From: Thiomicrorhabdus marina
Lineage (GTDB): Bacteria; Pseudomonadota; Gammaproteobacteria; Thiomicrospirales; Thiomicrospiraceae
Assembly (NCBI RefSeq): GCF_017571465.1
Contig: NZ_JAGETV010000016.1
Coordinates: 1-52,142, forward strand
Length of the DNA: 52,142 bases
Direction of reading: 5' to 3'
A program made the translations under genes and the position numbers. Positions within the stretch are counted from its first letter, which is position 1; the number at the start of each line of letters is the position of its first letter. Shown here piece by piece: positions 530 to 51,986 of this stretch. The notes under the pieces were generated by a model. That model had not been told where the DNA came from and did not search any database. It saw only the letters and a list, made by a program, of their open reading frames with translations.

Positions 530-1984
530 ATGGACCTAATTAGCCTCTATCCAACTTGGTATGAACCAACGGTTGGCTCTGGGTGGGTGGTTGCTTTGAT
601 TGCAACTTTCCACGTCCTCGCCTCGCACACTTCGGTTGGTGCCGCCTTACTATTTGCTTACCTCTCGCATAAAGCCTATCGCGAAGACCGTGATGATCTT
701 TTGGATTTCATCAAAAAATACGGCCTATTCTTAATGGTATTCACCTATGTTGCCGGTTCCATTACCGGCCCTGGGATTTGGTATTCGACTACCGTTGCCA
801 GCCCGAACGGGATTGGCGCCTTGATTCACTCCTTTGTGTGGAAATGGGCTACTGAATGGGTCTTCTTTGTCATCGAAGTCGTCGGTGTTTACATGCTGGT
901 TTATCTCGTCGGAAAGGTCGATAAGAAAACGCATATGAAAATCTCGGTCATTTTCGGTATGGCTTCCCTTGCAACCATGGTGATTATCGTTGGTATCTTG
1001 TCGTTCATGATGCTACCGGGTAAAGAACAATGGTTTACCGAAGGCGGTTATTTGAACGGCTTCTATGGTACTAACACCTTTATCCAGCTGGGTATGCGTA
1101 TGGCATTCATGTTTACCATGACTGCAGTTGTCGGTGGAATTGTTATCGCCGGTATTAAAGATCCGGCATTCAAAAAAGAAATGGCGCGCAAACTCGGTTG
1201 GCTGGGGATTATCTCAACGCTAGTCGGTGCGGCAATGTTCCAATGGTATCTAACTTCTGTACCAAGCCAAGCGCTATTGGTTATGGAGAACCGTCTGCCA
1301 GACTACTTCGGACCAAGTGTCATGATCGTACTGGCTGGAACACTGTCATATTTCATTATTACAATGTTACGTCCGCAATTAGTTGTGCAAGGCTTCGCCG
1401 GCGCAATGGCGGTAATCATTCTAGTTGCCGGTCTATGGCCTGAAGAGACAGCGCGTGAATCAATGCGTAAACCGTATGTAGCAGGTCAATATGTTTACTC
1501 GAACCAAGTCATTGGTCGTGACGTACCAGGAATGGACATCAAATCACAACTGCCGACCATCGAAAAAGTCGGGATTCTGAAAGCGCATCCATTTACGCCT
1601 GAGCACCTAAAAGAAGTCAAACAGAGCAATATGATTCAAGCCGGTGAATTTATCGCAATGACTTATTGCTCGAACTGCCACTCACCGAGCAAAACCGGTA
1701 TTCGCCCACTACACCGCTACTTCCCTGAAGGCACTTCGCAAGAACGCATGGCGCAGTATGTTAAAGGCGTGCTAACCACCGGTAATATCGCTTATATGCC
1801 TAAAATGCCAATGTTAGATTCCGAAGCGGAAGCGCTTGCGGCTTACTTGGTAATGAATAACGATGGCGGTGAAACAGCCGTGGCTGCAGCAATCGATATG
1901 GAAATTGAACAACGTGAGCGTGCTTTAGCTGAGCAAAAAGCTCAAGACAAAGTCGCTAGTGTTGAATTAATGGAGGGCAAATAA
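530..1984 (+). CDS. Cytochrome bd-superfamily-like membrane subunit fused to a C-terminal cytochrome c domain
   Basis: A 484-residue protein with about eight hydrophobic helices between residues 17 and 305, then a soluble domain with one heme c site, CSNCH (Cys380, Cys383, His384), and Met-rich MPKMPM near 423-428 as possible axial ligand. Helix 1 carries His28 and His33. Helix 3 carries Glu109 and Glu116, reminiscent of the ligand histidine and acidic pair of cytochrome bd subunit I (CydA). From family knowledge, bd-superfamily branches with a c-type heme extension exist; assignment to one of them is my inference. The next gene starts in the stop codon of this one. It probably passes electrons between the flavocytochrome encoded downstream and heme in the membrane, as an oxidase or a cytochrome c-linked quinone reductase. 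The charged C-tail (about 455-484) is likely helical. Confidence 0.7.
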   Translation: MDLISLYPTWYEPTVGSGWVVALIATFHVLASHTSVGAALLFAYLSHKAYREDRDDLLDFIKKYGLFLMVFTYVAGSITGPGIWYSTTVASPNGIGALIHSFVWKWATEWVFFVIEVVGVYMLVYLVGKVDKKTHMKISVIFGMASLATMVIIVGILSFMMLPGKEQWFTEGGYLNGFYGTNTFIQLGMRMAFMFTMTAVVGGIVIAGIKDPAFKKEMARKLGWLGIISTLVGAAMFQWYLTSVPSQALLVMENRLPDYFGPSVMIVLAGTLSYFIITMLRPQLVVQGFAGAMAVIILVAGLWPEETARESMRKPYVAGQYVYSNQVIGRDVPGMDIKSQLPTIEKVGILKAHPFTPEHLKEVKQSNMIQAGEFIAMTYCSNCHSPSKTGIRPLHRYFPEGTSQERMAQYVKGVLTTGNIAYMPKMPMLDSEAEALAAYLVMNNDGGETAVAAAIDMEIEQRERALAEQKAQDKVASVELMEGK

Positions 1985-3234
1985 TGGATGCTCAAAGTGT
2001 CTCTCAAATCACTGAGATGATGTATGCCTTGCGTAACCCTGCGGGCTTACCAACCTACCCGATTATTTTTGTCGGCCTTAGCGTACTAACTTTTGCTATG
2101 CATATTTTGTTTGTACAACTACTACTAGGGACGTCTCTTGTCGCACTGTATGGCGCTTACACTAATAATCCGTTATGGCGTCGTCTAGGCATGGCAATGA
2201 TTGATGTTGCTAAAGTATCGGTTTCTGTCGCCATTGTTATTGGTGTTGCGCCGCTACTTTTCGTACAGGTAGTTTATGATCCACACTGGTATACATCGAA
2301 TGTGTTATCAGCCGACTGGGTTATTGCCTTTATCATCATCTTGATTTTGGCTTACTGGGCAATGTACCTGTACTACTTCCAGAACTACAAACGTGAAGAT
2401 AAAACGGCTCAACCAAAATCGCGTTGGTCACTGATTGTCAGCCTAGCTTTAATGTTATTGGTCGGCTTTATTATGCACTCGCTAACCTCGCAAATTCTGC
2501 ACCCTGAACTGTGGAAAGAGTGGTATATGCAAAACGGCAAACTGGATTATAGCGGCGATACCCTTCACGCTTATAACTTCTGGCGTTATGCATTCTTTAT
2601 CTCTATGTCGATTCCGGTCGCCGGTGCGATGATGGTTACTTATCGTCGCTTCAAAATGGTTCGTGAAGATGCCGATATGCAATATCTAAACTTTGCGGCT
2701 GAAGTCGGTAAGAAATGGATTCTAGTCGGTTCAGTAATCGCTACGATTCTTTATGTTGCGTGGATGCTAACCATTCAAGAAACTGCCGGTGCTTTCGCTA
2801 CCTCTTTCTGGGGCATTATCGGCGGTGTTGCGGTACTCGGTTATGCGCTTTGGGCGAAGATTCGCCTTAATGGCAAGTCAGAAGATATGTGCAGTTATAT
2901 GGCGCTACCAATGGCTCTAGTCATCGGTTTAGTGGTTGCCACCTCTCGTGAGATTTTGCGTTACGACATTCTAAATGGTTTTTTCGGCTACGATTTCTTT
3001 GACTACAAAATCGTTATGGATTGGTACTCAACCGGCCTATTCTTCCTGACCTTCGCAATCGTTGGCGGCGTCGTTCTAAGCTATTTCCTAACTATCGCAT
3101 GGAAAGCCGGCCAGACTGTTGGCGTTTATACGCCAGGTCCTGGCGTACAAAAACTGGGAACCGCGGCAATCTGGATAGTCGCTTTATGGCTAGTACAGTT
3201 CTTCGTAGTCGGTTTCTACGTATGGGCGCAGTAA
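1984..3234 (+). CDS. Second bd-superfamily-like multi-heme membrane subunit
   Basis: A 416-residue, very hydrophobic protein with about ten predicted helices and no heme c motif. The first helix carries a His (FAMHILFVQLLLG, about residue 40), as in CydA-type first helices; a further His lies in helix 4 (FIMHSL). It does not resemble CydB in any motif I can recognise. It looks instead like a diverged partner of the preceding CydA-like subunit, so the complex may be an A/A' heterodimer. The ATG overlaps the stop of the preceding gene by one base (TAATG), implying translational coupling. The stop is followed immediately by the ribosome site of the next cytochrome gene. The bd-superfamily assignment rests on general architecture and should be tested by profile search. 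Confidence 0.6.
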   Translation: MDAQSVSQITEMMYALRNPAGLPTYPIIFVGLSVLTFAMHILFVQLLLGTSLVALYGAYTNNPLWRRLGMAMIDVAKVSVSVAIVIGVAPLLFVQVVYDPHWYTSNVLSADWVIAFIIILILAYWAMYLYYFQNYKREDKTAQPKSRWSLIVSLALMLLVGFIMHSLTSQILHPELWKEWYMQNGKLDYSGDTLHAYNFWRYAFFISMSIPVAGAMMVTYRRFKMVREDADMQYLNFAAEVGKKWILVGSVIATILYVAWMLTIQETAGAFATSFWGIIGGVAVLGYALWAKIRLNGKSEDMCSYMALPMALVIGLVVATSREILRYDILNGFFGYDFFDYKIVMDWYSTGLFFLTFAIVGGVVLSYFLTIAWKAGQTVGVYTPGPGVQKLGTAAIWIVALWLVQFFVVGFYVWAQ

Positions 3235-3245
3235 AGGAGTACAGC

Positions 3246-3632
3246 ATGAAAAAAACATTATTAGTTAGCCTAATTTCCGTTTCTGCCCTATTCGGCATGA
3301 ATTCGGCAAATGCCTCGGGTGCATTAATCCCTGCCGACAAGTTTGCTCAAGACCCTCAAATTCCTGGCAAAATGTTAGGCGATAACTGCTCGGCATGTCA
3401 CGGCACGCTTGGACGTTTTTATGACGAATCCATGCCTCCGTTAGCCGGTATTCCACGTGACGTATTCATTAAATTGATGCAAGACTTTAAAAACGAAGTG
3501 CGCCCGTCAATCGTAATGAACCACGTCGCTAAAGTGTTTACCGACAAGGAAATTGAACGCATGGCGGATTATTTTGCTGCCCAAGCAGACCGCCCATGGA
3601 AAGAAGAAAACGTCCTAGAAGGAGCCCAGTAA
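3246..3632 (+). CDS. Small periplasmic monoheme cytochrome c
   Basis: 128 residues: a Sec signal peptide (cleavage near residue 23, after ANA), then one heme c site CSACH (Cys48, Cys51, His52) and a C-terminal amphipathic segment typical of class I cytochromes c. The ATG at 3246 is chosen over longer in-frame options because AAAGGAG lies at 3233-3239 and the signal peptide starts here. Its stop overlaps the ATG of the flavoprotein gene (TAATG at 3630-3634). Its place directly before the FccB-like gene suggests it is a cytochrome subunit or electron acceptor of sulfide dehydrogenase. It is shorter than the diheme FccA type, which is encoded separately at 4946. Confidence 0.85.
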   Translation: MKKTLLVSLISVSALFGMNSANASGALIPADKFAQDPQIPGKMLGDNCSACHGTLGRFYDESMPPLAGIPRDVFIKLMQDFKNEVRPSIVMNHVAKVFTDKEIERMADYFAAQADRPWKEENVLEGAQ

Positions 3633-4930
3633 TGAATACCCTATCACGCCGTGAATTAATGAAGCGTTTTGGTGCTGCTGGTCTAAGCATGGGACTATTC
3701 GGCGCCTCCAAAGAGGCATGGTCGAAAACCGCGCCACATATTGTCATCGTTGGCGGCGGTATCGGCGGTGTTTCAGCTGCCAAATACCTGCGTATCTTAG
3801 ATAAGAACGTCAAAATCACGATTATCGAACCAAACTTGGAATATGTTTTCTGTCCGGGATCGAATGAAGTCCTAAACGACTTTGTCTCGATTGAAGATCT
3901 GACTGTGAACTACGAAAACATTAAATCGCGCTATGCGGTCAATATCGTCACTGATTTAGCTACCGACATTGACTATGCCGGTAAACGTGTCAAAACCAAA
4001 GCCAACGGTTTTATCAGCTATGACAAACTGATTGTTGCACCGGGCCCTGATTACAAGTTTGGCGATATCGAAGGCTACTCGAAACAGTTGGCGGAAGGCG
4101 ACTTCCCTCACGCTTGGAAAGCAGGCCCTCAAACAATGAAGCTACGCGAGCAGATCCATAACATGCCAAAAGGCGGTGTGGTTGCGATTTCATCGCCGCC
4201 AATGCCATACCGTTGCCCGCCGGCACCTTATGAACGCGCCAGCTTTGTTGCCGAGTGGTTATCGCACCACAATCCGACAGCCAAGGTGCTGATTCTGGAT
4301 TCGAAGAACAGCTTCACGTTCCGTAAACACTATATCGATTACTGGACCAAAAAACGCGGCTTTGGAACCAAAGAAGCGATGATTGAATGGGTTCCAGCGG
4401 AAAAAGGCGGACGAGTCACTCAACTGGATGCAGCCAACAAAACGCTGGTAACTGCCGATGGCGAACGTATTCAAGCAGACGTTATCAATATTATTCCGGC
4501 ACACACGGCAGCGAAGTTCACTCATGACACCGGCTTATCACAAGGTAATGAATGGGTACCTATCGATCCAATGGATTATCGTTCAATGGTAGACGACGAT
4601 GTTTATGTGGTCGGTGATGCAACCGAATCCAGTCCGATGGTTAAAACCGGTTATCTGGCTTCAAACCACTCTAAAGCAGTTGCCCAATCCATTGTTAATT
4701 CGTTTGCAGGTAAACCGCCTGTGCAGCCTTTATACACCAATAACTGTGTAGCGCTAGCGGGTGAGGATTACGGTATGACTATTACCGATACTTTCCGTGT
4801 TCAGAACGGCAAGATCGTCAAACAGTACGGTCACCAATCGACCGAATTGGACAATGATGCGCTACACCATATCCGTGCTTCATTAGCCATGAACTGGCAG
4901 CGTGCTTTCCGCCGCGACATCTTTGAATAA
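3632..4930 (+). CDS. fccB: Flavocytochrome c sulfide dehydrogenase flavoprotein subunit (FccB/SoxF type)
   Basis: A 432-residue FAD-dependent sulfide dehydrogenase that oxidizes sulfide in the periplasm. A Tat signal with twin arginine (SRRELMKRFG) occupies residues 5-14. The FAD Rossmann motif IVIVGGGIGG lies at about 37-46. The two cysteines that form the redox-active disulfide in this family are present: Cys195 in YRCPPAPYERAS and Cys372 in the NNC segment. A further Cys74 (FCPGS) lies near the FAD site, and the second FAD motif VVGDAT is near 327-332. The start at 3632 has GGAG at 3621-3624 and gives the Tat signal directly. Cytochrome genes stand on both sides, and it is translationally coupled to the first. 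Sulfide is the likely substrate; SoxF, a thiosulfate-pathway accessory paralogue, is the alternative reading. Confidence 0.92.
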   Translation: MNTLSRRELMKRFGAAGLSMGLFGASKEAWSKTAPHIVIVGGGIGGVSAAKYLRILDKNVKITIIEPNLEYVFCPGSNEVLNDFVSIEDLTVNYENIKSRYAVNIVTDLATDIDYAGKRVKTKANGFISYDKLIVAPGPDYKFGDIEGYSKQLAEGDFPHAWKAGPQTMKLREQIHNMPKGGVVAISSPPMPYRCPPAPYERASFVAEWLSHHNPTAKVLILDSKNSFTFRKHYIDYWTKKRGFGTKEAMIEWVPAEKGGRVTQLDAANKTLVTADGERIQADVINIIPAHTAAKFTHDTGLSQGNEWVPIDPMDYRSMVDDDVYVVGDATESSPMVKTGYLASNHSKAVAQSIVNSFAGKPPVQPLYTNNCVALAGEDYGMTITDTFRVQNGKIVKQYGHQSTELDNDALHHIRASLAMNWQRAFRRDIFE

Positions 4931-4945
4931 GACAGGAGACGATTG

Positions 4946-5659
4946 ATGAAATTTAAAAGATTACTTATCGCGACTGGCTTAAGTGTTTTTGCAGCAACCA
5001 GTGTCATGGCCAGCAGCGTACCGCATGCCGAACCTTGGACGGCTAAAGAATGGTTGGATGCCAAGCGGTCTATGCCGCAAGGCGACATCGATAAAGGCAA
5101 ACTACTGGCTGAACAAGGTTACTGCTATAGCTGTCACGGTGTTGAAGGAAATAACCCGACGCAATCAACACCAAGCCTAGCCGGACAAAATGCGGTCTAT
5201 ACTTACAAGATGCTGAGCGATTATAAGTCCGGGCGCTTTTATGTTGACCATAAATCGCATGTCATGGTGCACTTGATGCAATATTACGACCAGCAACAGA
5301 TGGCAGACATCGCTGCATACTATGCTGCCCAACCCTTACCTCATGGTGAATACATCAGCAAAGATGTTGAGGTTGACCCAACAATTATTCGTTTGGTCGC
5401 CAAAGGCGATACCTCACGCATGATCGTACCTTGTGCATCCTGTCATGGTGCTCATGGTGAAGGCGGCATGAACGAAACCCCTGCTCTAACCGGCATGAGC
5501 CCACGTATGTTTATTCGTCAGATGAATGCTTATAAAGACGGTACTCGTCATAACGATGTTAACTCAGGTATGGCGCAATTCACCAAGGATTTAACCGATG
5601 AGGAGATCCAAGCACTTGCCGATTACTACGCACAACTCAAACCTAGAGGAGCGCAATAA
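4946..5659 (+). CDS. fccA: Diheme cytochrome c, FccA-like subunit of sulfide dehydrogenase
   Basis: 237 residues with a Sec signal peptide (to about residue 23) and two class I heme c domains: CYSCH (Cys60, Cys63, His64) and CASCH (Cys163, Cys166, His167). The two halves each resemble the c4/FccA fold, so the protein is an internal duplication. AGGAG at 4934-4938 is seven bases before the ATG at 4946. The TTG three bases upstream is a less likely start. Position directly after fccB fits the electron-accepting cytochrome subunit of flavocytochrome c. It would pass electrons to the heme c domain of the membrane protein at 530. The stop codon overlaps the next ATG by one base. Confidence 0.85.
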   Translation: MKFKRLLIATGLSVFAATSVMASSVPHAEPWTAKEWLDAKRSMPQGDIDKGKLLAEQGYCYSCHGVEGNNPTQSTPSLAGQNAVYTYKMLSDYKSGRFYVDHKSHVMVHLMQYYDQQQMADIAAYYAAQPLPHGEYISKDVEVDPTIIRLVAKGDTSRMIVPCASCHGAHGEGGMNETPALTGMSPRMFIRQMNAYKDGTRHNDVNSGMAQFTKDLTDEEIQALADYYAQLKPRGAQ

Positions 5660-5754
5660 TGAACGGTAAACAAGCAATTATCTGGGGATTGATTCTAACT
5701 TTCGGTTCAATTGCCCTAATGTGGTTACTCAGTATGATTACAGTCGTCAACTAA
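5659..5754 (+). CDS. 31-residue single-helix membrane peptide, CydX-like in size and place
   Basis: A very short gene, starting at an ATG that overlaps the TAA of the diheme cytochrome (TAATG at 5657-5661) and ending at TAA 5752-5754. The product has a short polar start with two-residue charge (NGK), one strongly hydrophobic stretch from about residue 7 to 30, and ends with VVN. Size, single helix and last position in the operon recall CydX/YbgT, the small stabilising subunit of cytochrome bd oxidases. Sequence identity to CydX is not evident. The overlap with the preceding gene and the terminator just downstream argue that it is real. Function is inferred. Confidence 0.7.
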   Translation: MNGKQAIIWGLILTFGSIALMWLLSMITVVN

Positions 5755-5770
5755 GGCCACTACTCCCCCT

Positions 5771-5807
5771 AAAAGCGTCTCTTGAGTATTCATTAGACGC
5801 TTTTTTA
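5771..5807 (+). terminator. Rho-independent terminator of the sulfide-oxidation operon
   Basis: AAAAGCGTCT and AGACGCTTTT form the stem, followed by a T run. It closes the six-gene operon 17 bases after the small membrane peptide. Confidence 0.88.
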
Positions 5808-47031: not shown

Positions 47032-47559
47032 TTATATAAACAATGCCTGTTGTTCAGGGCTGACTGCAAAGTAACTAGCTGCACCGGCAAATTCAATCCC
47101 GTCAATGAATTCATCCTCACGAAAGTTCATCATCTCGACACTCATTTGACAAGCGGTCATCTGCACCCCTAGTTCAAGACAAAGCTCACGTAATTCCGCC
47201 AACGGCACTTGCCCGTTTTGCAACATGGTTTTCTTAAAACCCCAAGTTGCCAGACGCTCCATCCCCGGTAGCTGCCAAAGTAATTGTGGCAGATGTCGAT
47301 TCAGATCAATTTGCTTTAACCATTCCGGCCCAATTGGACTCTGCATTTTCATCGCCGGATTACCTACAGGAGAAACTCGCAAATGCTTAGTCTCTTTTAG
47401 AGCACATTGCAAACCATAAAAAGTGAAAAAGATTTCGACCTGTTTATCCATCGCCGCGGCAGTACTGGCAAGAATAAAAGTGGGATAAGCCCAATCTAAA
47501 GTACCTTTAGAATGAATAATACTTAGCTGACCTAGTTTAGGCTCTTTTGCAGAAGTCAT
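47032..47559 (-). CDS. dsrE2: DsrE2-family sulfur-transfer protein
   Basis: 175 residues of the DsrE/DsrF-like (DsrE2) fold: a first strand and helix (LSIIHSKGTLDWAYPTFILASTAAAM), then FFTFYGLQCAL near 44-54, and a conserved cysteine in QMTACQMSVEMM near 133-144. In sulfur oxidizers DsrE2 works with TusA and rhodanese to move persulfide sulfur in the cytoplasm, often beside sulfur-oxidation genes. Many DsrE2 proteins are membrane-linked; no clear helix is seen here. tusA stands 19 bases upstream on the same strand, so the two form an operon. Confidence 0.85.
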   Translation of the reverse strand: MTSAKEPKLGQLSIIHSKGTLDWAYPTFILASTAAAMDKQVEIFFTFYGLQCALKETKHLRVSPVGNPAMKMQSPIGPEWLKQIDLNRHLPQLLWQLPGMERLATWGFKKTMLQNGQVPLAELRELCLELGVQMTACQMSVEMMNFREDEFIDGIEFAGAASYFAVSPEQQALFI

Positions 47560-49797: not shown

Positions 49798-50175
49798 ATG
49801 AATTCAAAAATGAAGCAACTGTTGACTGCTTTGGCTATTTCAAGTGCCGTAATTACAGCGCCAGTTAGCGTTCAAGCGGCTGACAAACCAGCTGCTTCTG
49901 ATATTGAAGAGGGCAAAAAGCTTGCTTTTAGCCGTTCTAAAGGTAACTGCCTAGCATGCCATATGGCAGGTGATGGAGCGCAACCAGGCAATATCGGTCC
50001 GGCGTTAATCGCAATGAAAATGCGTTACCCAGATAAGCAAAAGCTTTACAACAAAGTTTGGGGTACTGATGATTCAACAAAAGTACCTAACAGCATGATG
50101 CCAGAATTCGGTAAAAGCGGAATTATCACTGATGATGAAATTCGCAAAATCGTAGACTACATCTACACGCTGTAA
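49798..50175 (+). CDS. soxX: Sulfur-oxidation cytochrome c SoxX
   Basis: 125 residues with a signal peptide (to about residue 28) and one heme c site CLACH (Cys51, Cys54, His55). NSMMPEFG near 100 supplies the axial Met. Together with SoxA it forms SoxAX, which attaches thiosulfate oxidatively to SoxY. First gene of soxXYZA with a near-perfect ribosome site. Confidence 0.95.
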   Translation: MNSKMKQLLTALAISSAVITAPVSVQAADKPAASDIEEGKKLAFSRSKGNCLACHMAGDGAQPGNIGPALIAMKMRYPDKQKLYNKVWGTDDSTKVPNSMMPEFGKSGIITDDEIRKIVDYIYTL

Positions 50176-50220
50176 ACACACTAAATTTTTATTAAACCTT
50201 AACCGGGAGTTATAAACCTT

Positions 50221-50691
50221 ATGAAACGTAGATCTTTCCTTAAAGGTACTCTAGCCACTGGTGCGGCAGCTGTTGCTGTTAACGCTGGTCTTCTTACACC
50301 TAGCACTGTTCTTGCTGCTGATTGGAACAAAGGTGCTTTCTCAGCAAAAACTACTGATGACGCTCTATCAGCAGTTTACGGTTCTTCTGCAGCAACTGCT
50401 TCAGGCGACATCAAGCTTAAAGCTCCAGCTATCGCGGAAAACGGTGCTGTTACTCCTGTAGAAGTTGACGCTTCAGGTATCGACGGTGTTGAATCTATCT
50501 CTATCCTAGCTAGCAAAAACCCAATGCCAATGGTTTGCGAATATGCATTCGCTGCTGGCGCTGTAGGTTTCGTTTCTACTCGTATCAAAATGGGTGAAAC
50601 TATGAACGTTATCGCTATCGTTAACGCGGGTGGTAAACTTCTTAAAGCTGAACAAGAAGTTAAAGTAACTATCGGTGGTTGTGGTGGTTAA
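50221..50691 (+). CDS. soxY: Sulfur-carrier protein SoxY
   Basis: 156 residues with a Tat signal (KRRSFLKGTLATG) and the C-terminal swinging-arm motif GGCGG, whose Cys154 carries the sulfur substrate. The mature protein is an immunoglobulin-like beta domain that pairs with SoxZ. Codons are strongly biased to favoured forms (GCT, GGT, GTT, CTT), consistent with high expression. Lies 45 bases after soxX. Confidence 0.97.
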   Translation: MKRRSFLKGTLATGAAAVAVNAGLLTPSTVLAADWNKGAFSAKTTDDALSAVYGSSAATASGDIKLKAPAIAENGAVTPVEVDASGIDGVESISILASKNPMPMVCEYAFAAGAVGFVSTRIKMGETMNVIAIVNAGGKLLKAEQEVKVTIGGCGG

Positions 50692-50750
50692 TCCACTACG
50701 CTAAGTAGATATAGTTAACGATTTAAAAGAATTTACGAAAAGGAAATAAC

Positions 50751-51062
50751 ATGGCTATCAAAATCCGTATGCGTGGTAAATCTAAAGGTGGCGTTGCAGA
50801 AATCAAAGCGCTTATCAAACACCCAATGGAATCTGGTGCTCGTATGAACAAAGCTACTGGTAAACCTTACCCAGCTAAGTACATCGACATGGTAACTGTT
50901 TCTGTAAACGGTACTCCTGCAGTTAACGCTCAGTGGTCTGGTGCGGTTTCTGCAAACCCTTACATGGCTGTTAAAGTTAAAGCTAACGCTGGTGACGAAG
51001 TTACTGTTAGCATGACTGACAACACCGGTGATAAAGGTGAAGAAGTTATCAAACTAAAATAA
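50751..51062 (+). CDS. soxZ: SoxY partner protein SoxZ
   Basis: 103 residues without a signal peptide, as usual for SoxZ, which is exported with SoxY through the Tat system. The start MAIKIRMRGKSKGGVAEIKALIKHPMESG matches the family. Like soxY it uses highly biased codons. AAAAGGAAA precedes the ATG. A strong hairpin follows before soxA. Confidence 0.96.
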   Translation: MAIKIRMRGKSKGGVAEIKALIKHPMESGARMNKATGKPYPAKYIDMVTVSVNGTPAVNAQWSGAVSANPYMAVKVKANAGDEVTVSMTDNTGDKGEEVIKLK

Positions 51063-51079
51063 TTTAGTTTAGATGCTTA

Positions 51080-51101
51080 AGCCCCTGCATCTGCAGGGGC
51101 T
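51080..51101 (+). other. Intercistronic hairpin between soxZ and soxA
   Basis: AGCCCCTGCA, two bases, TGCAGGGGCT: a perfect 10-bp GC-rich stem without a clear T run. It may protect the soxXYZ mRNA 3' end or reduce read-through, setting soxA to a lower level than soxYZ. Confidence 0.7.
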
Positions 51102-51155
51102 ATTAATACAAAATAATAAAAAATATATATAAAGCTCTCGGATAGGAGGATTGAA

Positions 51156-51986
51156 ATGAAGAAGACTCTACTTAGTGCACTCGCTTTAGGTGTGTCTATG
51201 GTTGCAACAAGCCCTGCGGCATTTGCAATTGATCCGGAAAAAGACCGTCAACAACTTGTCGACTTTTTCAAAGCCAAAAGCCCTAAAATCGCTTTTGACG
51301 ATTACAAGGATGGCGGCTATATTTACAGCGCAGACAAACGCGCTCAATGGGAAGCAGTAGAAGAGTTCCCTCCGTATTTAGATTCTGTTGATGCAGGTGA
51401 AGAAATCTATCAACAGGACCAAGCAGTTTACGAAAAATGTTTTGGTGATGATCCATCAAACGTTCGTGGACACTACCCTTATTTTGACGAAAAAACCCAA
51501 GAAGTGGTTACACTTGAATGGGCAATTAATTTATGTCGTGAAGAAGCCGGCCTAAAACCTCTTAAATACAAGAAAGGTGATATGGCTAAGCTAAGTGCAT
51601 TCTTCGCTTTCCAAGCTCGCGGCCAAAAAGTTAATGTAAAAATTGATTCAGAAGGTGCAAAACAAGCTTATGAAGCCGGCCGTGAGATGTACATTAAACC
51701 GCGCGGTCAGCTAGGGCTTTCTTGTGCTAAATGCCACACTTACAACTCTGGCCGTTATGCGCGTGCCGACCTACTTTCACCGAGCCTAGGTCACACAACG
51801 CATTTCCCAGTATTCCGTGCTAAGTGGCAAGAGCTTGGAACCCTACACCGTCGCTACGGTGGCTGTCACCAAAACATGCGTGCCAACCCGTTTAAAGCGC
51901 AAAGTAAAGAATACCGTAACCTAGAATTCTACCAAGCTTATTCTTCAAATAACTTGGAAATCAACGGTCCTGGTTACCGCCAGTAA
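51156..51986 (+). CDS. soxA: Sulfur-oxidation diheme-type cytochrome c SoxA, single-heme form
   Basis: 276 residues with a signal peptide (to about residue 24). One heme c site CAKCH (Cys190, Cys193, His194) and the active-site Cys237 (RRYGGCHQNMRA), which carries the persulfide ligand. Cys95 and Cys127 in the N-terminal half lack the CxxCH form and probably form a disulfide where diheme SoxA has its first heme. It catalyses, with SoxX, joining of thiosulfate to SoxY. AGGAGG lies before the ATG. Codon use is less biased than in soxYZ. Confidence 0.95.
   Translation: MKKTLLSALALGVSMVATSPAAFAIDPEKDRQQLVDFFKAKSPKIAFDDYKDGGYIYSADKRAQWEAVEEFPPYLDSVDAGEEIYQQDQAVYEKCFGDDPSNVRGHYPYFDEKTQEVVTLEWAINLCREEAGLKPLKYKKGDMAKLSAFFAFQARGQKVNVKIDSEGAKQAYEAGREMYIKPRGQLGLSCAKCHTYNSGRYARADLLSPSLGHTTHFPVFRAKWQELGTLHRRYGGCHQNMRANPFKAQSKEYRNLEFYQAYSSNNLEINGPGYRQ

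Follow-up and report, generated by a model that had tools for sequence, protein, structure and literature searches.

A six-gene operon of sulfur-oxidising bacteria that joins a flavocytochrome c sulfide dehydrogenase to a probable cytochrome c-fed oxidase of the bd superfamily

In textbook accounts, flavocytochrome c sulfide dehydrogenase (FCSD) passes its electrons to soluble cytochrome c, and bd oxidases take theirs from quinol. The known FCSD, FccAB, is a soluble periplasmic dimer that donates to free cytochrome c; it is represented by structures 1FCD, which we take to be the enzyme of Allochromatium vinosum, and 5N1T, presumably that of Thioalkalivibrio. A stretch of 52,142 nucleotides from Thiomicrorhabdus marina (contig NZ_JAGETV010000016.1 of assembly GCF_017571465.1, positions 1 to 52,142; hereafter the window) carries near its start an operon of six open reading frames, ORF1 to ORF6 (530-5754, + strand), which probably encodes a sulfide-to-oxygen route made of two modules, an FCSD and a likely cytochrome c-fed oxidase of the bd superfamily. 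Like FccAB, the operon has the FccB domains, both redox cysteines and an adjoining gene for an FccA-like cytochrome. Unlike FccAB, it adds an oxidase-like membrane pair and a cytochrome c4-like cytochrome, and its FccB belongs to a clan of its own.

The second close system is the cytochrome bd quinol oxidase (qOR; 5DOQ, 6RKO, 9R2G), whose CydA subunit has a fold and active-site residues in common with ORF1. The pair encoded by ORF1 and ORF2 differs from qOR in lacking the Q-loop and the ligands of heme b558, and in having a CydA-like paralogue instead of CydB. Canonical CydA has nine helices; a heme c domain stands in ORF1 at the place of the ninth. The OR-N group, including the CydAA' enzymes of Nitrospirota and Nitrospinota, is described as a CydA with a CydA' partner and cytochrome c as proposed donor, and no quinol site is described outside qOR in the bd superfamily, in the available parts of three sources (PMC10839748, PMC12342949, PMC13189123). 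Make-up and proposed donor both resemble ORF1 and ORF2, in a comparison of OR-C and OR-N by description only; coupling to FCSD goes unmentioned in those parts of the descriptions. Profile-profile alignment (hhalign) of ORF1 and ORF2 with a single OR-N-like CydA (L088) gave no link, the OR-N label being our own reading.

Cable bacteria have a CydA homologue with a periplasmic cytochrome c domain, for which oxygen reduction has been proposed in the portion of the paper available to us (PMC13047784). Like ORF1, that protein, compared by description only, unites a CydA-like part with periplasmic heme c in sulfide oxidisers; the words 'fccB' and 'flavocytochrome' occur 0 times in the main text of the paper. 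The supercomplex of Aquifex aeolicus is built from sulfide quinone reductase, bc1 and a heme-copper oxidase; the operon uses an FCSD and a bd-like enzyme instead. That assembly, with its ba3 oxidase, performs sulfide oxidation and oxygen reduction together, according to the available part of its description (PMC3128077). An FCSD co-encoded with a bd-like oxidase was not found in the literature searched, which was available in part, and it may be in print. A genome paper on Guyparkeria and Thiohalobacter, in the part available, describes monoheme Fcc and heme-copper oxidases and mentions 'cytochrome bd' 0 times, and one on Thiothrix, likewise in part, lists fccAB and cydABCDX separately. On the evidence of these partial sources, bd-superfamily enzymes that probably use cytochrome c have already been proposed (OR-N), and the form linked to FCSD would be the new part.

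An original prediction, made from the DNA letters alone, described a six-gene operon coupling sulfide dehydrogenase to a bd-like membrane complex. All six reading frames are present, tightly spaced and on the + strand. Three of the five junctions (at 1984, 3632 and 5659) are one-base overlaps of the form TAATG, and the remaining two are gaps of 11 and 15 nt, each with an AGGAG-like site; the count of four junctions overlapping or nearly so was slightly generous. The single terminator noted after the operon is a terminator-like hairpin with a 10-bp stem and T run at 5771-5806 (+ strand), read directly from the sequence. It is absent from an automatic terminator scan of the region because its loop exceeds the 8-base limit of the scan, which found 9 sites against 6.5 expected in shuffles, among them a terminator-like hairpin at 129-164, upstream of the operon.

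ORF1 (530-1984, + strand, 484 aa) is predicted to be a CydA-like subunit with a C-terminal monoheme cytochrome c domain; it has eight predicted membrane helices, with N and C ends that would both be periplasmic. ORF2 (1984-3234, + strand, 416 aa) is a predicted CydA'-like membrane subunit, a paralogue of ORF1 that contains no CxxCH. Neither protein has an oxidase match in Pfam or NCBIfam, in which ORF1 shows sub-threshold cytochrome c matches and ORF2 noise from pilin models and domains of unknown function. PF01654, the canonical CydA model, does not match ORF1 at E<=1, and plain phmmer with ORF1 against PDB returned nothing; only a broad core profile gave matches. With this profile (A3, 22 rows) searched against all PDB sequences, CydA of Geobacillus thermodenitrificans (5doq_A) scored E=9e-7 and was the only match below E=0.3, and the two further matches up to E=1 are both CydA. 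By hhalign the 68-member ORF1 family matched 27 canonical CydA at E=3e-8. The signal rose only on the addition of distant family members; a 50-row ORF1 alignment matched canonical CydA weakly (E=0.0012, probability 20%).

AlphaFold (AF2) models were built from 50 of 57 ORF1 and 48 of 56 ORF2 proteins. The ORF1 model has a predicted local distance difference test (pLDDT) score of 72 and a predicted template modelling (pTM) score of 0.58; in a Foldseek search of PDB its ranks 1-9 are all large subunits of bd oxidases, with E from 1e-3 to 2e-2, and no match is at or below 1e-3 by the count of the tool (best 1.0e-3). For the ORF2 model (pLDDT 88, pTM 0.86), ranks 1-15 are all cytochrome bd subunits, starting at E=1.5e-5, with four at E<=1e-3. 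The models thus show a predicted CydA fold for both proteins, more firmly for ORF2 than for ORF1. The ORF1 and ORF2 families match each other by hhalign at E=1e-7 to 6e-10. We place ORF1 in the bd superfamily because core profile, profile-profile and fold comparisons all select bd oxidases, and ORF2 because of its predicted fold and its paralogy with ORF1. Among the checks that the original prediction proposed, profile searches for ORF1 and structure predictions for both proteins found bd oxidases closest. Its claim of two bd-like subunits stands as to fold in both models, and for ORF1 by profiles also; it is amended in that the two appear, by sequence, to be paralogues of the CydA/CydA' kind and not a clear CydA plus CydB pair.

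Residues known from CydA point the same way. ORF1 H28 aligns in register with the heme histidine of the first transmembrane helix (TM1) of 5doq_A, which we take to be H19 in E. coli CydA numbering. E109 and E116 of ORF1 align with the two TM3 glutamates of 5doq_A, at a spacing of 7 residues in both proteins; the available parts of two papers give an inserted leucine at this glutamate pair in E. coli CydA (PMC8951039) and E107 as its TM3 glutamate (PMC13189123). H28, E109, E310 and R313 are found in 68 of 68 ORF1 family members, and E116 in 66, with Asp in the other 2. E310, R313, K314 and P315 (68/68) form a motif E-x2-R-[KQ]-P-[WY], and 26 of 27 canonical CydA carry E-x2-[RK]QP[WY]; a second, non-significant segment of the PDB alignment likewise pairs E310-x2-R313-K-P of ORF1 with E-x2-R-Q-P of CydA. 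The counterpart in E. coli CydA is presumably E445-x2-R448-Q-P. By alignment, then, ORF1 appears to hold the active-site set of bd enzymes: the TM1 histidine, the TM3 glutamate pair and E-x2-R(Q/K)P. A second TM1 histidine of ORF1, H33, five residues past H28, is also present in 68/68 members; 5doq_A has Thr there.

The ligands of heme b558, His in TM5 and Met in TM7, appear to be missing from ORF1. R190 (68/68) occupies the site of the b558 histidine in the hhalign alignment, or lies one residue off in that of HMMER, and no Met is conserved in TM7 of ORF1: M265, the sole TM7 Met of the window's protein, occurs in 13 of 64. With only about 17 residues between TM6 and TM7, ORF1 lacks a Q-loop. 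The heme c domain of ORF1 (1634-1849, + strand, residues 369-440) is a sub-threshold Cytochrome_CBB3 match in which C380, C383, H384 and M423 are invariant in the 68 aligned members; it follows TM8 and, from the charge pattern of the loops, would lie in the periplasm. Its CxxCH at residue 380 was missed in the original heme inventory, which was right as to ORF3 and ORF5. In the ORF2 family, H40, R201 and R326 are found in 67/67 members and E323 in 64/67, with His in 3. Since ORF2 keeps the TM1 histidine H40, R326 and E323, it may hold heme, unlike the usual CydB. The lack of a Q-loop and of the b558 ligands makes quinone the less likely acceptor, and the pair is then most likely a bd-superfamily enzyme that oxidises cytochrome c and not quinol.

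The other half of the operon is a sulfide dehydrogenase. ORF3 (3246-3632, + strand, 128 aa) is predicted to be an FccA-like monoheme cytochrome c with a signal peptide-like N-terminus; its best PDB match is the cytochrome subunit of FCSD (1fcd_C, E=2e-13). ORF4 (3632-4930, + strand, 432 aa) is the predicted FccB flavoprotein, with a twin-arginine N-terminus. It contains PF21706 (E=9e-38) and PF09242 (E=3e-9), and residues 36-391 align with the flavoprotein 1fcd_A, its best PDB chain (E=9e-88). Cys195 and Cys372 fall in aligned segments that carry Cys in 1fcd_A; they are kept in 54/54 in-operon FccB and equally in 60/60 stand-alone FccB, and twin Arg occurs within the first 60 residues in 54/54 in-operon FccB. 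Domains and redox cysteines together assign ORF4 to FCSD on sequence grounds, in agreement with the FccB-type flavoprotein with both redox cysteines first proposed; one heme motif in ORF3 and two in ORF5 likewise bear out the monoheme and diheme cytochromes. ORF5 (4946-5659, + strand, 237 aa) resembles cytochrome c4 (8uf3_A, E=1e-19; also 6q2u_A and 1etp_A), a diheme type that serves as donor to terminal oxidases. ORF6 (5659-5754, + strand) encodes a clade-restricted hydrophobic peptide of 31 aa.

Conservation of the gene set goes far beyond what chance would give. An ORF1 relative is encoded at 59 loci, and the genome-neighbourhood survey found the set complete, with ORF1, ORF2, cytochrome c, FccB and diheme genes, at 51 of them (L062, with ORF1 broken into two pieces, counted among these); all 8 incomplete loci lie at a contig end. 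The order is ORF1-ORF2-FccB-diheme at 45 loci, and at 6 loci, of the Halothiobacillus/Guyparkeria group, ORF1 has FccB on its upstream and the diheme gene on its downstream side. The cytochrome c gene directly precedes FccB at 53 of 53 loci where FccB is visible. Family alignments omit proteins below 75% of the length of the window's (3 ORF1, 2 ORF2, 4 diheme, 1 cytochrome c). Among 62 genomes of the window's family there are 49 ORF1-type matches in 42 genomes, after a 33-residue fragment (G466:C7) was dropped from 50 places; FccB follows downstream on the same strand in 43, one is cut by the end of its contig, and the remaining 5 belong to an FccB-free paralogue with lower scores. Across Pseudomonadota, FCSD_central occurs in 96 of 398 genomes against 3 of 398 for the bd-like core, and of those 3 only the window's genome was seen with the core beside FccB. 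Operon hosts include Thiomicrorhabdus, Thiomicrospira, Halothiobacillus, Thiobacillus, Thiothrix and Thiomonas.

ORF6 was found by tblastn at 18 of the 59 loci, in Thiomicrorhabdus, Thiomicrospira, Hydrogenovibrio and related metagenome-assembled genomes (MAGs) of Thiotrichales and Gammaproteobacteria. A separate reading-frame search of 50 loci recovered 17 of the 18 (not L013) and also picked an unrelated frame at L055, 198 nt away. A role for ORF6 as a universal CydX-like subunit was dropped on the count of 18/59. Two loci show further copies of operon genes. Thiomicrorhabdus heinhorstiae (L009, 3996-13441) has two tandem operon copies, of which the contig end truncates the second; their FccB are of different types, 44% and 56% identical to the window's, and ORF1 is 89% and ORF2 82% identical in both. 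A Hydrogenophilus MAG (L039) has a second cassette of cytochrome c, fccB and diheme genes (2148-4504) about 3.5 kb upstream of a full operon.

Each half also occurs without the other. The pair stands without FccB at 5 loci of the Thiomicrospira family, with a small cytochrome c gene after it in 5/5, and on one Methylosinus plasmid, two Thermus plasmids and one Agrobacterium plasmid; these plasmid homologues carry the RefSeq-derived names 'cytochrome c' and 'hypothetical protein'. FccB was not found by tblastn at any of 11 FccB-free pair loci. Genes for a RegB/RegA-like redox-regulatory kinase and regulator, a setting that we count in favour of the two-module route, adjoin the pair at L154, L155 and the Methylosinus and Agrobacterium loci and lie about 4 kb away at L157, and were not seen near the L153, L156 or Thermus pairs; the NCBIfam models for ActS/PrrB/RegB and ActR/PrrA/RegA are best hits, but below cut-offs. 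A sister family of the pair, with a heme c domain at the C-terminal end of each subunit, was seen at L109 (2117-4858, - strand) and L110 (173-2894, - strand). No FccB lies beside the L109 pair, a candidate stand-alone bd-like cytochrome c oxidase as judged from its sequence; the L110 contig is too short to tell. On the Methylosinus plasmid pMSC49c (L200), feoB and a methanobactin biosynthesis cluster flank the pair, a cytochrome c gene and the RegB/RegA-like genes; such a setting hints at an oxidase that does without copper when the metal is in short supply. On the Thermus thermophilus plasmids (L201, L203) the two-gene pair lies near a SaoD/DsrE family gene and genes for substrate-binding proteins of metal ABC transporters.

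FccB-linked ORF1 sequences (57 tips) group in one clade and FccB-linked ORF2 sequences (56 tips) in another, both with support 0.97, which argues for one joining event. The 54 in-operon FccB likewise fall into a single clan (support 0.98), apart from 60 stand-alone FccB, and the linked/stand-alone label changes once on the tree, against at least 30 changes in 200 shuffles. Besides the 54 in-operon sequences, the tree holds 33 stand-alone FccB from the window's family (all 33 loci) and 27 of 29 from the phylum search; the stand-alone loci are the best match of top genomes, high-scoring and not a random sample. The 62-genome count gave 110 FccB matches down to 125 bits, of which 67 are unlinked to the pair, and part of these 67 are on the tree. 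Repeated drawing of FccB from the stand-alone pool of the cell is rejected by the single clan. Since that choice favoured high scores, another 12 loci of unlinked FccB were fetched (one, L199, repeats an existing tip), and 10 of them fall inside the operon clan. The bd-like pair was not found by tblastn at these 10 loci, and the idea that operon-type FccB occurs only with the pair was rejected. The original prediction had named fcc genes without the membrane proteins in close relatives as grounds against it, and these 10 loci of the same lineage go half of that way. Pair without FccB and FccB without pair together suggest an oxidase module and a sulfide dehydrogenase module.

Some of these FccB have another oxidase for a neighbour. 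At L197 the order is cytochrome c, fccB, COX2, COX1, diheme cytochrome c, with the heme-copper oxidase exactly at the place of the pair and UbiA-family (CtaB-like) and CtaA genes nearby. At L188, COX2, COX1 and the diheme gene are divergent from cytochrome c and fccB, and a UbiA-family (CtaB-like) gene is present; L194 has the cytochrome c, fccB, UbiA order of L188 on a contig that begins 826 bases before the cytochrome gene. A heme-copper oxidase thus adjoins FccB of the operon clan at 2 of 10 loci, or 3 of 10 if the gene order of L194 is trusted. At two Halothiobacillus loci (L050, L051), COX1 and a diheme gene lie about 4.4 kb upstream of cytochrome c-fccB-ORF1-ORF2. Replacement of the pair by an oxygen reductase argues that the pair also reduces oxygen; with one exact swap and a few looser cases, it is the best evidence for that step.

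In the proposed route, FccB would oxidise sulfide in the periplasm by means of flavin adenine dinucleotide and the Cys195-Cys372 disulfide, as homology and the conserved residues suggest. Electrons would pass to the FccA-like monoheme cytochrome, the c4-like diheme cytochrome or both, and then to the heme c domain of ORF1. From there they would reach b-type hemes in ORF1 and ORF2, held by residues placed by alignment (H28, E109/E116, E310/R313), and oxygen would be reduced to water at the membrane pair. A single event would have brought the FCSD cassette and the oxidase together, and related operons would have exchanged the cassette since then. A stronger form, in which ORF1 to ORF6 make up a single membrane-anchored sulfide:oxygen oxidoreductase, its FCSD docked on a sulfide-resistant, cytochrome c-fed oxidase free of b558 and of a quinol site, is conceivable, though we would not quite expect it; the annotation of its subunits as 'cytochrome c' and 'hypothetical protein' would explain why such an oxidase has escaped notice.

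Several observations weigh against the reading of the operon as a coupled sulfide-to-oxygen system. On the side of the membrane proteins, confidence in the ORF1 model is moderate (pLDDT 72, pTM 0.58) and its Foldseek values are only 1e-3 and weaker, the ORF2 profile matches nothing in PDB, hhalign of ORF2 with canonical CydA gives no convincing link (E=0.008 over 55 columns), and ORF2 has no TM3 glutamate pair. On the side of the coupling, 7 of the 10 operon-clan loci show neither the bd-like pair nor COX1/COX2 (tblastn, 9-16 kb each; at L193 and L196, whose reading frames were not listed, other oxidase types would have escaped), so that coupling is not obligate, and the heme-copper swap itself speaks against an obligate FccB-bd complex, as FccB is not tied to one partner. 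Tree distances over 51 loci correlate at r=0.56 between ORF1 and FccB, against r=0.91 between ORF1 and ORF2; the moderate value fits exchangeable modules rather than a tight complex. The hosts also include Roseospira and Rubrivivax, phototrophs able to grow without oxygen.

The modules may share a transcript and not an enzyme, each using the general periplasmic pool of cytochrome c, a reading that keeps the oxygen step, denies only a dedicated complex and overlaps in its odds with the two-module route. The existence of both stand-alone cytochrome c-fccB-diheme cassettes and stand-alone oxidase pairs favours it, as does the moderate ORF1-FccB correlation; against it, the two FccB-linked clades (support 0.97) point to a single origin of the linked pair, and all 51 loci that no contig end interrupts retain the set, which suggests a closer tie than a loosely shared pool. 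We regard a shared pool as a serious contender that falls somewhat short of probable.

The original prediction left the electrons to go to oxygen or to quinone. Oxygen is favoured by the heme-copper swap, and quinone, as said, is the less likely; that the membrane pair is a quinone reductase, moving FCSD electrons through heme c and heme b to quinone, we consider unlikely. Quinone binding is known among bd relatives, and in CydB a quinone can sit at a position taken by hemes in CydA, according to the available part of one paper (PMC8951039). Further down the Foldseek lists come membrane proteins linked to quinone: subunits of alternative complex III for both models (E=0.03 to 0.7), and polysulfide reductase PsrC at rank 10 for ORF1 (E=0.06). 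Against a quinone reductase stand the loop of only about 17 residues, the lost b558 ligands and the heme-copper oxidase in the place of the pair in a related operon. Sulfide quinone reductases, moreover, do the job of moving electrons from sulfide to quinone more simply.

Some operon hosts are, we assume, facultative denitrifiers, which would suit a pair that reduces another acceptor such as nitric oxide, or that detoxifies oxygen or nitric oxide and does not conserve energy. Cytochrome bd of Chromobacterium confers resistance to nitric oxide, sulfide and cyanide in the available part of its description (PMC11837568). The enzyme swapped in at related loci is COX1/COX2 with a UbiA-family (CtaB-like) gene and at L197 also CtaA nearby, which counts against this role, and we hold it to be distinctly unlikely. 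That the membrane proteins belong to an unrelated heme-anchoring or transport family, as the missing Pfam and NCBIfam oxidase matches and the names of the homologues might suggest, is very improbable given that the profile (E=9e-7), profile-profile (E=3e-8) and fold comparisons all select bd oxidases.

The host genome comprises 2.83 Mb in 82 contigs and is 99.99% complete; it has five FCSD_central matches and one heme-copper oxidase subunit I, and canonical CydA (PF01654) was not found in it at E<=0.001. Its nearest named relative, Thiomicrorhabdus sp. 6S3-12, has an ORF1 92% identical to the window's. The genome (G000) has five FCSD-like proteins in all, and three fccB genes besides that of the operon lie on contig C66 within about 4.4 kb (123-127.5 kb; L001-L003, L112), on both strands and each adjoined by a cytochrome c-like match. 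At the far end of the window are genes for SoxX, SoxY and SoxA (49798-51983, + strand; TIGR04485, TIGR04488 and TIGR04484, all above cut-off), consistent with a thiosulfate oxidiser, and a gene for a DsrE2-like sulfur carrier (47035-47559, - strand; NF047629, E=2e-50, below its cut-off).

In E. coli, cytochrome bd helps respiration to withstand sulfide, according to the available part of its description (PMC4815019), so that a bd-type oxidase would make sense in sulfide. If the proposed route is correct, well-known sulfur oxidisers would have a direct sulfide-to-oxygen enzyme system with an oxidase that is probably sulfide-tolerant, which could explain sulfide respiration without poisoning of the heme-copper oxidase. 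The operon gives targets for asking whether bd-superfamily enzymes use cytochrome c, the question left by OR-C and OR-N, and the swap with a heme-copper oxidase seen in nature renders the prediction of oxygen reduction directly testable.

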